From: Pezizomycotina sp. ARF18
Lineage: Eukaryota; Ascomycota
Direction: 5' to 3'
Length of the DNA stretch: 30,015 nucleotides
NCBI GenBank assembly: GCA_002224055.1
Contig: AZLU01000025.1
Location: 270,087-300,101 of the forward strand
Shown here: in pieces, positions 13,501 through 25,390 of the stretch
Numbering within the stretch: the stretch's first letter is position 1
Layout: the number at the start of each line of letters is the position of its first letter
Made by a program: the position numbers and the translations under genes
Notes under the pieces: generated by a model
Databases searched by the model: none
Told to the model about the DNA's origin: nothing
What the model saw: the letters and a program-made list of their open reading frames with translations, nothing else

Positions 13501-15983
13501 ATGTCGTACAGGAAAATCCCTTGGGGATGACCGGAACGAACAACGTTCCTCTGGGAACACGTCGTCGTTTCGGTGGGTCCTCAGAGGCAAGCGCTCCCGC
13601 TGACGAGCCACCATCCAAGAGACCGCCCTCGTCGCACAGCTATGAGGACCCGGCAGCGTCCAAACGCGGCCGAAGCCCTGTCAGAGGTAAGCAATATCAT
13701 CCACAATTTAATTCTGCATAATCTACATTTGATTGCTTCTTACTTACCCTTGGGGCTTTTTTTTCTTCTACTTTCTAGCCGAACCCGCTGAAGATGGAGT
13801 TCGCAAGAGGAAGAAGAAGAATCGTTGGGGCGATGCTACGGACAACAAGGCGGCCGCCTTATGGGATTACCCACGAGAATCGAAGCCGCGATGACTTCGA
13901 ACAGCTGGAGGCGTACACTCTTCACCTTCGTATTGAAGAGATCAGCCAGAAACTTCGTATTAACGATGTGGTTCCTGCCGATGGAGACAGGTAAGTCGAC
14001 TGGTGATTTCTTTCTACTACTTTCCATGATGTGATCATTTCTCACAATCATTTTGTTAAACCTAGTCACCATCTCCGCCTCCTCAGTACGATAATATGGG
14101 TCGCCGTATCAACACCCGTGAATACCGCTACAGGAAGCGCTTGGAAGAGGAACGTCACAAGCTTATTGAGAAAGCCGTGAAGGCCATTCCCAACTACCAT
14201 CCTCCATCCGATTACCGACGCCCAACGAAGACCCAGGAAAAGATCTATGTTCCTGTTAACGATTACCCGGAGATAAACTTTAGTACTAACATCCCCATCC
14301 TTCTTGAATTTAACACTGGCAGCTTGATAGCTCTTCTCTTGAAGAGAGGAATTGTTTCACTTTGCTTTTCGTGCTTTGCTATGCAATTCACAGCAGTGGC
14401 TCCACATTTTCTTTTGTGGATCTGCCAATCTGAACGATTGCTCTTTTTCATATACCTTTGGAACACATATACTAACCTTGAACTCTTCCTCGCCTGAAAG
14501 TCGGTCTTCTAATTGGCCCTCGTGGCAATACTCTCAAAAACATGGAAACTCAGTCGGTGCCAAGATCGCAATCCGAGGCAAAGGCTCTGTCAAGGAAGGA
14601 AAAGGCCGCAGCGATGCAGCTCATGCTTCTAACCAAGAGGAGACCTCCATTGTTTAATCATGGCCGACAGTGAAGAAAGGTGCCAAAGCCAAGAAGCTTG
14701 TCAACGAAGTCATTGAAACAGTACGCGCAAACCCTCGCAGCTTTATTAACCCGAAAATGATTCGTTGGAACCGTGCTAACCATTATTTGAACAGGCCGCT
14801 TCGATTCCAGAAGGTCAAAACGCACTCAAGAGAAACCAGCTTCGAGAACTTGCTGCTCTCAACGGTACCCTTCGTGACGACGAAAACCAGGCTTGTCAAA
14901 ACTGTAAGTTATCCACTTTCTCATTCTCTTTGCTTCTTTTCTCTTATTGATCTGTACTAACACGTTCTAGGCGGTCAAATCGACATCGTAAATACGATTG
15001 CCCAGAACAACGCAACTTCACGGCAACATCATCTGTCGCGTTTGCGGTAATGCTGGACACATGGCACGCGATTGTCCCGACCGTCAACGCGTGGAAAACT
15101 GGCGTAACAACGACGATCGTGGCGGCGGCGGACGCTTCGGTGGAAATAACAATAAGCCGCCTTGGTCAAGGTGATGCGGTTGACCGTGAATACGAACAGC
15201 TCATGCAGGAAGTTTACGGCGGTAATGCGAGCAGCGATTCGACCGGACACAGCGTGCAATTGAAGCTGGACCTGGTGGCGATAATGCTGGAGGAGGAGGC
15301 GGTAACGACAACCGCACGGAAACTACAGGGGTGGCTATCACGGTCGCGATGATCGCGGCGGATACAATGATGGTGAACAGCGTAACTTGAAACCATGGCA
15401 GCGCGGACCGACCGGCGCCGCGGCTCCCTGGCAGAACCGCAGCCGCGAAGACCGCCCGCATCATCATTCTTACAATGGTCCGCTCACGGAGACGGGAACC
15501 AGGGTTCAGGTGGAGGACCACCTCCTTGGGCCTCTGGTGGTGCGGTGGTGGTGGCCGTGCGGGTTATCACGGTGGAAACCATCGCTATGAGAACAAGGAC
15601 CACAGTGCTCCCCACCACCACCCCTCCACAGCCACATGGACAAGGACCAAGTCAGTTCAACTCTTTCCCACCCCGCCGCCGCCTCCAGCGGGCGGGTTTG
15701 GCGGTTACAGTGCTCCGTACGGTGCTCCTGGTATAGGTGGTATGCCGCCAGCGATGGGAGGTCCACCGCCTGGCATGAATCCGTCTTACGTGGTTACAGT
15801 GGACAGTACGAAATATGTCCCTACATGCTCCCCCACCGCCGCCACCACCAGGTGGTGATAGCGCTGCTCCGCCTCCGCCGCCACCGCCGCACCGCCCCCT
15901 GCGGGAGATGCCCTCCACCACCGCCACCTCCGCATAGATTATCCCTCCCACAAATTGCGAGTCACATTTCCTGTCGGCACTGA
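13501..15983 (+). CDS. Branchpoint-bridging protein (BBP/SF1), splicing factor
   Basis: The yeast homologue is Msl5. BBP binds the intron branch-point sequence UACUAAC in early spliceosome assembly. Blocks in order: [11 protein letters not shown] near the N-terminus, [78 protein letters not shown], the KH domain ([37 protein letters not shown]), [20 protein letters not shown], two CCHC zinc knuckles (CQNC through CPEQR, then [17 protein letters not shown]), and a Gly/Pro-rich tail. Family length is about 550-650 residues, which fits. The start is ATG 13501 if one A is missing near 13514; the first ATG in the observed frame is 13527. Introns: 13687-13778, 13991-14065, 14283-14500, 14721-14794, 14904-14970. 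At least nine single-base slips occur, which is improbable in a functional essential gene and points to sequence error. The stop is uncertain (15937-15983) because the Pro-rich tail also slips. Confidence 0.92.
14283..14500 (+). other. BBP intron 3 with a TACTAAC at both ends
   Basis: The intron splits the Ile codon of PEINF-I-GLLIG in the KH domain. The donor is GTACTAAC, so the 5' splice site overlaps an exact TACTAAC (14284-14290). The expected branch point, TACTAAC at 14470-14476, lies 24 nt before the acceptor GAAAG. At 218 nt it is the longest BBP intron; the others are 67-92 nt. Confidence 0.8.
14904..14970 (+). other. BBP intron 5 in the first zinc knuckle
   Basis: Donor GTAAGT and acceptor TTCTAG, with canonical TACTAAC at 14955-14961. 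It splits the second Cys codon of the first CCHC knuckle (T|GC). Downstream the frame is lost by one missing G near 14982. Confidence 0.8.
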
Positions 15984-16611
15984 TGTCCGCAGCTCGTTAT
16001 TATCCAGCCTGAGACACTAACAACTGACAAGCTTTACCGAAGAGAACTCATTGACCAAAGCTTCCCTCGGGTTACTTGCAAATCTTTTGTATTTTTATGT
16101 TTTTCTTATATGTCTTTTTCTTTTTGCTATAAAATATCTACAGCAGGCCAGCATGTGACATGCAAACTCTAGCAAGCCGTGACTACTAATAACACGCTAC
16201 GATTTGCCTGTGGTAAACTCGATTGACTGCTAGCTCATTTAGATGTGTAATTTTTTTTTCTTTTCCTTTTCTATGATTTTCTATATTATGTTTCTCTCCG
16301 TCTCTTCTTTTTCTTTTCTTTTCTTTCTTTTTTTTTCTATGTCCATTCTCCATTTCTTTCAATCTCATTATCTTGTTCCAAAAATTGTTCGAAAGATGCT
16401 GCTTATTGTTGATGGCCATCTTCAAATCTCTAAGACATCAGACGCGTTTTATATGTACTAACGATCAAAGATAGCTTTTGTTACTTACTAAAAGTTCGTA
16501 CTAACGGTCATCTAACCAAGAACAAAGTGAGAAGTTGGCAGGGAGAATATAACTAACTTTTGTGAGCTACTAACTGGCACTAACTAAACCGTCTACCTGA
16601 TGTTATCATTG

Positions 16612-16630
16612 TTCCTATTATTCTTTCAGC
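16612..16630 (+). other. Strong 3' splice-site-like sequence
   Basis: A pyrimidine tract ends in CTTTCAG, about 45-60 nt after TACTAACTGGCACTAAC. This is ordinary branch-to-acceptor geometry, so part of the downstream cluster may belong to a 3' UTR intron or to a separate spliced RNA. No unique donor could be assigned. Confidence 0.35.
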
Positions 16631-16723
16631 ACTTTTTACTTACAAATATTCTCCCGATGTGATGACTGACCGACTGACCGCTGAAGGCCTGAAACTGACA
16701 TTGGTTGTTCTGAGACCTCTAAC

Positions 16724-16733
16724 TATATAAAAG
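16724..16733 (+). promoter_or_regulatory. TATA-box-like sequence
   Basis: TATATAAAAG. A second TATATAAG lies at 16866-16873, 32 nt before an ATG at 16905. Either could drive an unrecognised plus-strand transcript. Confidence 0.35.
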
Positions 16734-16904
16734 TGCCTAACAAACGCCGGGACTAACGTAGCGAACTAACATTAATTTGCTCATCTCGGACCTGTCAAAG
16801 ATAATCGATCTTTTTGTATACCCTGTTAAAACGAAGCGAACCCTACTGATCCCTGCGCAGCTGTTTATATAAGCTCAGCTACGCTTCTCCCCTTTATCCA
16901 CTTC

Positions 16905-18376: not shown

Positions 18377-18384
18377 TATAAAAG
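18377..18384 (+). promoter_or_regulatory. TATA box of the GST gene
   Basis: TATAAAAG lies 65 nt before the upstream ATG (18449) and 164 nt before the family-like ATG (18548). It is preceded by a pyrimidine-rich stretch. The spacing suits a transcript that includes both start codons. Confidence 0.5.
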
Positions 18385-18547
18385 CCAGCTCCAGCGACCA
18401 CTGCTACTCTTTCCTGCTTCTTCTTCATCCTACTGCAACAGGTCATTAATGACAACTAGAGTCCAACAATTAGCATCGCACTTTTCTAGTACTTCGGCTG
18501 CATCTGACAATATTGAAAATACTACCGGTTTTTTGAATATCTTGAAT

Positions 18548-19731
18548 ATGTCTTCCGACGGTCCTCACCCTATCACTCTTTACACGGCGCAGACGCCGAA
18601 CGGGTATGTTATTTAGGCTTGAAATTTTTGATTAGCCCAGGAAAGACCGTTAAAAAGTTATTATGGCAGAAGAGGTTGGTTTACTAATATTTGTTGTATT
18701 TTCATTACTGTAGTGTCAAGATTTCCATTGCCTTGGAGGAACTTGGAGTGAGTGTCGCTTCACTTTTCGAGAGACTGTTTAGCTTTAACTGGACAGCAAA
18801 GGATCAATTACTCTCGAAAGCAGGCTAAGATTATTTGGAAGATCGGAAAAGCTAACGTTTTGCAATTGCTTGTCGTTTCTGTAGCTGCCATACAATGTCC
18901 AGAAGGTTTCGCTCATGAAGAACGAGCAGAAGGAAGACTGGTTTATCAAGCTGAATCCTAACGGCAGGATACCGACCATCGTAAGCAAAAACAATTCCTC
19001 CTGATAAAAATCGTATATTCTTTCTACTCGAATAACAAGGGTAAATTCACTAAACATGTTTTTGCGATATCCAACAGGAAGACAAGAACGGCCCAGACGG
19101 AAAGCCCATCTCCGTATTCGAGAGCGGTGCGATCCTCCTGTACCTCGTCGACACGTACGACAAGGATACAAATGAGCTACCCCAAGAACTCCAGGGAGTA
19201 CTTTGAGATGCTGGAGTGGATCTTCTTCCAGAACGCCGGCGTCGGTCCGATGCAAGGGCAGGCGAACCACTTTTTTCCGCTATGCGCCGGAGAAGATCCA
19301 ATACGGTATCAACAGGTAGGGACCCTTTTTCTCTCCATCTACCGTATGCGTTAGTATTTGCTGATAGGTTGGGATTTATATCGTAGGTACCAGAACGAAA
19401 CCCGCCGCCTCTACGGCGTCCTGAACAAGAGGCTCGAGGAGCAATCCAGCGGCTGGCTCGTCGGCGACCACATCTCCATCGCCGACGTCACGACGGTCGG
19501 CTGGGTCAACAGCGCCCCCTGGGCCGGTATTGACCTCGACGAGTTCCCCAAGGTCAAGGATGGCTCGAGAGGATCAGGAACCGTCCGGCGGCCAGGAAGG
19601 GCTTCGACGTCCCGAGCCGAGCCAGCTCAGCAAGATCCAGGGAAACAAGGAGGAAGAGGATAAGCAGCCGCCGAAGCTGGCAAGTGGGTCCAGGAGGTAT
19701 GAAGCAGGACGCGCAGAAGCCGTCGAAGTAA
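18548..19731 (+). CDS. Glutathione S-transferase, Ure2/YfcG-like
   Basis: A cytosolic enzyme expected to conjugate or reduce with glutathione. The thioredoxin-like half reads [61 protein letters not shown] and [18 protein letters not shown]; the E-S pair in FESGAI is the family's glutathione gamma-Glu contact. The helical half reads [60 protein letters not shown] and [13 protein letters not shown]. Introns: 18604-18713, 18748-18884, 18981-19077 and about 19316-19386. Frame slips occur near 19170, in the T run 19271-19276 (one T too many), near 19560, near 19615, at 19664-19668 and near 19694. Corrected, the protein ends at TAA 19729-19731 and is about 260 residues, normal for the family. An in-frame ATG at 18449 adds 33 residues (see findings). 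Confidence 0.92.
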
Positions 19732-24569: not shown

Positions 24570-25390
24570 CTACCACAGACTCCAGACCGTCGAGATTAAC
24601 GACAGTGCTAGGCCCAAGTAGAGGGCTAGTCTGGAGTTGTCAACGGTCTGGCTCCCAGCGCCTTGCTTCTTGTATTCGATAGCGAGCTCTGTGTAATTGA
24701 TGGACTTTCCGGGGTCTCCAAGGAACTTCGCACTCATTCCCGTGGAGTTGAAGCAGATCTTGTTCCACACGGCTGGCTGACCGAATCTGTTGGCCTCATC
24801 ATCGGAGAATGTAATATCCGCACACTATTGATTCATGTTAGCCCAAGATCTATTAAAATCTTCAGAGGTCATGTACCCCATGTTGACACTCACGTTGTAC
24901 AAGGCAGAACCGCTAGCAACAAGCTGGACGACTTGTATCGTCGCATTTACTCCAGCCTTGACGAAAGGAGCAATAGCCTTAGGGATCTTAACACGCGGCA
25001 GGCAGAAAGTTCCGTTTCCACCGGTCTGGTTGAACATGGGCATCATAATCTTCTGGAAGGCGTTGATGTCTGTCGTCTCAGCCAGTTCGTTGCCGAGGCC
25101 GATGTTAACGCTGTGAAGGCGAAGGCATGGAGGGGAGTTATCGAGATAGCGCCACCAGCCGTCGGCCATGGGTGTCTAACATTCGGATCCCGCCGCAGAC
25201 CACCACCTTTTTGACAAACAAATTAGTATTCGAAGGCGTGTATTTGTAAAGATATTGATGAAGATGTCAACATACATGGAAACTGGAACTGGGTGTTGTA
25301 GGAGTCTCCTCTTGACACTGGATAGTTCAACTGGAAATGGGCCGAGACGGACGAAACCGCGGCAAGGCAAAGTATTACGACTTTGAACAT
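24570..25390 (-). CDS. BIM1-like (LPMO X325) copper-binding GPI protein
   Basis: A secreted, probably plasma-membrane or cell-wall anchored protein of the BIM1/X325 family. Members have an LPMO-like fold, bind copper through the N-terminal His of the mature protein, and act in copper uptake or the cell wall rather than in polysaccharide cleavage. ATG 25390 starts a signal peptide (MFKVVILCLAAVSSVSA), and cleavage exposes HFQLNYPVSRGDS with His at position 1. Then come FPCGG (Cys split by intron 1), HPWPTAGGAISI, SVNIGLGNE, FNQTGGNGTFCLP, NATIQVVQL, GSALYN-CADITFSDDEA (intron 2 before Cys) and WNKICFNSTGM. The tail NSRLALYLGLALSLISTVW is a typical GPI signal with small residues before it. Exons: 25390-25276, 25206-24894, 24824-24570. 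Only one frame slip is seen, near 25110-25120. Several Asn-X-Thr/Ser sites suit a glycoprotein. Confidence 0.9.
24825..24893 (-). other. BIM1-like gene intron 2
   Basis: GTGAGT to AATAG, 69 nt, inserted directly before the conserved Cys of ALYN-CADI, with GCTAACATG as branch point. Intron 1 (25275-25207) is also 69 nt, has TACTAAT, and splits the Cys codon of FPCGG. Confidence 0.85.

Follow-up and report, generated by a model that had tools for sequence, protein, structure and literature searches.

TDP-43 binds the 3′ UTR of its own mRNA. Formation of the spliceosome on an intron in this UTR leads to nuclear retention of the RNA and to its degradation there (PMC3950720). TDP-43 is a splicing protein that binds RNA and reduces its own abundance, and it provides a mammalian model for the feedback that we propose here for an ascomycete branchpoint-bridging protein (BBP/SF1). 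The two cases differ in protein family and in motif; BBP is a core branch-site factor rather than an optional regulator, and its case is known from sequence alone. In Neurospora, a filamentous ascomycete, 3′-UTR introns can trigger decay (PMC7746235, citing Zhang and Sachs 2015), so that splicing of such an intron lowers the mRNA level; the BBP intron that would correspond to it is a predicted one. In filamentous fungi, the SR gene srp2 undergoes unproductive splicing, and its retained intron is unusually long (PMC4379411). It resembles BBP as a splicing-factor gene with a long retained intron, which BBP intron 3 could be, and differs in encoding an SR protein and, in the parts of that paper covered, in having no 3′ cluster. 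Among splicing regulators, feedback is well documented for examples such as SR proteins, TDP-43 and FUS (PMC4379411 and PMC3950720 among the sources).

A second line of comparison leads to the STAR proteins of animals, in that ACUAAC is enriched downstream of the stop codons of GLD-1 targets (PMC4316625, PMC13004596). A reading of this DNA made from the letters alone (the sequence-only reading) had likened BBP to GLD-1 and Quaking, and the likeness stands for the protein family (STAR, KH-Qua2) and for the nearly identical RNA word. It does not extend to architecture or targets: GLD-1 and Quaking are animal proteins with a Qua1 dimer domain that act on other genes, whereas SF1/BBP has no Qua1, and in the tree of PMC4316625, as far as that source was covered, SF1 sequences are the sole fungal STAR members and the SF1 subfamily stays monomeric. 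Among the matches listed in our literature search, with subscription literature mostly outside its range, there was no description of BBP/SF1 regulating itself by way of its 3′ UTR, nor of any branch-site-recognition protein that does so via its own branch word. In the parts covered, PMC12179342 does not mention SF1, PMC4380400 has the word 'autoregulation' solely within a reference on Npl3, and the autoregulation described in PMC4666396 is that of SFSWAP.

The genome comprises 46.4 Mb in 408 contigs, and the window, that is, the whole 30,015-nt stretch of DNA that we analysed, lies at C25:270087–300101. It contains the following gene and intron.

13501–15937, plus strand: gene for the branchpoint-bridging protein BBP/SF1, with six or more exons and a C-terminus rich in proline.
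14283–14500, plus strand: BBP intron 3, 218 nt, boundaries inferred from the conserved protein frame.

The assignment of the gene to BBP/SF1, proposed from the letters, was borne out by Pfam matches above cut-off to SF1-HH (3e-17) and zf-CCHC (3.5e-7). The KH piece alone scored 0.0038, under its Pfam cut-off, and a joined KH query found yeast BBP (4wal) and human SF1 (7vpx and 1k1g) as its nearest solved relatives. The protein therefore has the SF1 helix-hairpin, the KH-Qua2 region and the CCHC zinc knuckle of the BBP/SF1 family. A genome search with a 97-residue query revealed no second BBP locus, and scans for orthologues in prokaryotic and viral collections returned 114 and 15 pattern matches, respectively, none of them a relative. 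Translation would start at 13501 or 13527 and stop at 15937, or at 15983 or 16020 in other frames. Single bases break the BBP frame at many points, yet the encoded residues remain conserved; by eye, the GST gene (approximately 18449–19660) has similar one-base frame breaks. These breaks in BBP and GST likely reflect an error-prone assembly, which makes the position of the BBP stop codon uncertain. Errors of this kind could alter one or two of the sites described below, not create eight. Elsewhere in the window, a Pfam match to a BIM1-like copper acquisition factor lies at 24825–25169 on the minus strand (E 2.1e-10).

About 80–830 nt downstream of the BBP stop lies a cluster of the word that BBP is expected to bind, an expectation that we base on what is known of the protein family.

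16016–16021, plus strand: ACTAAC, site 1, 79 nt downstream of the stop at 15937.
16456–16462, plus strand: TACTAAC, site 2, within the 13-nt direct repeat GTACTAACGATCA.
16499–16505, plus strand: TACTAAC, site 3, within copy 2 of the 13-nt repeat.
16552–16557, plus strand: ACTAAC, site 4, from the word count.
16568–16574, plus strand: TACTAAC, site 5, from the word count.
16579–16584, plus strand: ACTAAC, site 6, its A being 46 nt upstream of a candidate 3′ splice site.
16752–16757, plus strand: ACTAAC, site 7, from the word count.
16765–16770, plus strand: ACTAAC, site 8, from the word count.
16023–16028, also 16665, 16673 and 16694, plus strand: ACTGAC words (n = 4), those at 16665 and 16673 inside the tandem GACTGACC.

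Exact word counts on both strands reproduced, to the base, all the motif numbers per strand given by the sequence-only reading. Eight ACTAAC words, three of them TACTAAC, occupy 16016–16770 on the plus strand, and the minus strand has none there. The plus strand of the whole window holds 12: these eight, three in BBP introns (14285, 14471 and 14956) and one elsewhere (3466, outside BBP). The minus strand holds four (18042, 18274, 19355 and 28654). Site 1 would contain the BBP stop codon if the true stop were 16018–16020. ACTGAC, which we take to be a second word accepted by SF1-type proteins, is also frequent in 15940–16800 (n = 4, by hexamer and word counts), and the broader pattern ACTNAY occurs there 17 times on the plus strand vs 0 on the minus strand. 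The ACTGAC copies, the absence of GCTAAC from the region and the 5′ splice site of intron 3, GTACTAAC, are additional to what the earlier reading had listed.

To assess the enrichment quantitatively, we used a background sample of 20 stretches, each 10 kb long and together drawn from 20 contigs (200 kb), which contained 65 ACTAAC words on both strands, or 0.163 per kb and strand; 0.12 would thus be expected in 757 nt. Among all hexamers of 15940–16800, ACTAAC ranked first (8 vs 0.13 expected, Poisson P 1.7e-12), and none of 5000 dinucleotide-preserving shuffles of this segment reached eight copies (mean 0.44, maximum 4); the enrichment held against these controls. The 17:0 strand skew of ACTNAY was the strongest among 4244 overlapping scan windows (230 kb), followed by a 12:1 skew in a tandem array in stretch L014. 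Enrichment over other 3′ flanks held equally. When we counted ACTAAC in the 861-nt flanks of 218 stop-to-stop frames of at least 120 codons, which are predicted frames rather than verified genes, 215 had 0–2 copies, and the three others were the L014 tandem array (9 copies) and a pair of overlapping frames that belong to the BBP locus (8 and 6 copies). The distribution over these flanks rules out a common 3′-flank composition as the cause. The observation is thus correct and far above chance: the cognate motif of BBP is enriched on the sense strand in the 3′ region of its own gene.

We also searched the entire genome with four patterns of three ACTAAC words at set distances, using the same patterns read backwards as controls. 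The searches gave 95, 23, 32 and 43 matches, against 25, 3, 5 and 9 for the respective controls, and the BBP locus was recovered by the first three of them and was absent from the 43-match search. The enrichment survived this comparison. Nearly all of the matches, sorted by eye, were tandem arrays, (TACTAAC)n and (ACTA)n among them. Those at C100 and C281 were one shared dispersed sequence and that at C3 was a short near-tandem; the non-tandem, single-copy loci were BBP on C25, C41:212.8k, C136:91.9k, C222:3.3k and C225:41.1k. In its best 757 nt, the BBP locus has eight ACTAAC words, the highest number of the five, vs 5, 5, 4 and 3. The C41 cluster is locally denser than that of BBP, with five words in 85 nt (L025 2939–3023, minus strand); a Ser/Thr-rich frame on that strand ends about 0.83 kb before it. 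The C136 cluster has five words in 391 nt on one strand (L026 2682–3072, minus); its neighbourhood has no clear gene, the nearest frame noted being small, secreted-protein-like, about 1 kb on and free of Pfam matches. The neighbours at C222 are kinase-like frames, as judged by reading them. An evident link to splicing was found in none of the neighbours of C41, C136 and C222. These results show that ACTAAC clusters occur elsewhere in the genome but rarely, and that the one richest in copies adjoins the gene of the cognate protein. A tight two-site pattern gave 0 matches in the genome and 2 in its backwards control.

Several other identities of the region were tried and rejected. The five tandem rows in 15900–16900 (T-rich, CCACCACCG and GACTGACC, the last at 16664–16684) contain no ACTAAC, and there are no head-to-tail ACTAAC copies, so the cluster is not a tandem microsatellite. 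A genome self-search, which skips simple repeats, returned the region itself and one 85-nt match at 78% in the T-rich part, leaving the motif core uncovered; a dispersed repeat or transposon was rejected because the core has no match elsewhere. A coding gene was dismissed by eye only, no RNA family matched the cluster at E up to 5, and no tRNA was found there.

The rival that survives best, unlikely as we consider it, is that a decayed repeat or duplication expanded locally and landed beside BBP by chance. Part of the cluster is indeed a local duplication: the 13-nt direct repeat, whose copies are 92% alike, holds the sites at 16457 and 16500, and two ACTGAC words sit in the GACTGACC tandem. 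The many (TACTAAC)n arrays of the genome and its four other non-tandem clusters point the same way. Such an origin would nevertheless leave the differing flanks of most sites (by eye), the lack of an ACTAAC array and of a genomic match for the motif core, and the fact that the adjacent gene encodes the cognate protein to be accounted for.

To relate the cluster to the splicing signals of this genome, we assembled 69 heuristic candidate introns, those of BBP included. Since they were chosen partly for CTRAY, only the base preceding CTRAY is informative. Of these introns, 10 contained GCTAAC and 5 contained ACTAAC, both small numbers. In the region downstream of BBP, CTAAC is preceded by A in 8 of 11 cases and by G in none. 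The cluster therefore follows the word preferred by the protein, not the commonest branch word of the introns. A discovery of branch words from k-mers beside 5′-splice-like words gave a weak signal (CTAAC 42 vs 24, rank 20). Two further features of the region bear on the processing of the BBP transcript.

16562–16629, plus strand: candidate weak 3′-UTR intron (prediction), GTGAGC...TTCTTTCAG, with an alternative 5′ site GTGAGA at 16527.
16080–16340, plus strand: T-rich tracts, which, to judge from the sequence, might support polyadenylation ahead of seven of the eight sites.

The candidate intron encloses sites 5 and 6, or sites 4–6 with the alternative 5′ site, and the two splice-site pairs that share its 3′ site are the only ones above the cut-offs in 15940–16900. 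By itself this intron is not unusual: an equal or better pair with CTRAY was present in 87 of 400 background windows, a count to which true introns of other genes contribute, and one with ACTAAC as the branch word in 11 of 400 with a looser 5′ cut-off. Alternatively, no feedback might be involved, and the motifs might be plain branch sites, either of one or more constitutive BBP 3′-UTR introns or of introns in a small non-coding RNA. ACTAAC is evidently usable as a branch word, as seen in the 5 of 69 candidates and in BBP introns 3 and 5, both of which have TACTAAC close to the 3′ end. We rate this possibility somewhat below that of a chance expansion; eight exact words in 757 nt far exceed what introns need, the commonest branch word is missing, and a single 3′ site serves all the splice-site pairs. 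Least likely of all is that the words are transcription-factor sites in a promoter downstream of BBP, as the TATA-like TATATAAAAG at 16724 and TTTATATAAG at 16864 might suggest, since all 8 ACTAAC and all 17 ACTNAY words lie on one strand, which is unusual for DNA elements, no notable coding frame precedes the GST gene (by eye), and that gene has its own TATA-like stretch at 18377.

Our preferred explanation, to which we assign a probability of roughly 0.55, is that the cluster consists of BBP binding sites, located towards the 3′ end of BBP's own transcript, that serve negative feedback on the level of BBP. It takes as its starting point what is directly established, namely the words and their position after the BBP stop, together with their one-strand bias and genomic rarity. 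A one-strand cluster of its own word behind the BBP gene suggests that BBP may control its own mRNA, and the ACTNAY bias of 17:0 fits an element that acts at the RNA level. In this one genome, the feedback interpretation is plausible and better supported by the sequence than it was before. The main doubt concerns where the mRNA ends. Seven of the eight sites start about 520 nt downstream of the stop at 15937, past the T-rich tracts, which could end the mRNA ahead of these seven; the median 3′ UTR of Podospora is 212–239 nt (PMC9801653). Nascent RNA could carry the sites even if the mRNA ends at these tracts. The predicted accessibility of the sites was only average, and we dropped it as supporting evidence.

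In the mechanism that we envisage for this feedback, the region would be transcribed as an extended 3′ UTR or by read-through, and BBP would bind its ACUAAC and ACUGAC words. Together with U1 and U2AF, BBP might then start spliceosome assembly on the weak candidate intron (16527/16562–16629). When BBP is plentiful, splicing could be completed, placing an exon junction after the stop codon and exposing the mRNA to decay; alternatively, assembly could stall and the RNA would be kept in the nucleus. Either decay or nuclear retention would lower BBP. Feedback of this kind would show how a general splicing factor stays at a set level and would connect SF1 with what its relatives in animals do at 3′ UTRs.

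Intron 3 of BBP may contribute a second brake. At 218 nt, it is the longest of the BBP introns; the remaining four measure 67–96 nt when intron 2 is taken to end at 14086, 14065 being the likelier end. The 5′ splice site of this long intron is GTACTAAC, which overlaps a TACTAAC at 14284 and under a rough model scored −0.8, vs 5.9–9.6 in the other four introns; its 3′ site, at 0.3, also scored lowest of the five. A second TACTAAC, at 14470, is likely the branch site. Bound BBP would mask the 5′ site from U1 and thereby favour retention of intron 3, which would end the frame early; with the intron retained, the frame stops at 14497, near the start of the KH domain. The two elements could form a two-part homeostat sensing the concentration of BBP, with high-affinity words as decoy branch sites in the 3′ UTR and an intron 3 5′ site made from BBP's own word, a combination that we consider rather unlikely. 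If it were true, STAR-type 3′ UTR control would exist in fungi, with a hint that the GLD-1/Quaking mode grew out of SF1 feedback.

Inspection by eye of the genome-wide matches also brought out a recurring layout, in which a (TACTAAC)n-like array is accompanied by repeated ACTAAC on the opposite strand about 40–130 nt away. It occurs at C1:327.2k, C19:254.8k, C34:207.0k, C75:108.1k and C96:100.7k, and likewise at C136:3.9k, C173:10.7k, C179:75.6k and C250:38.3k. If transcribed, these loci would be natural decoys for BBP.
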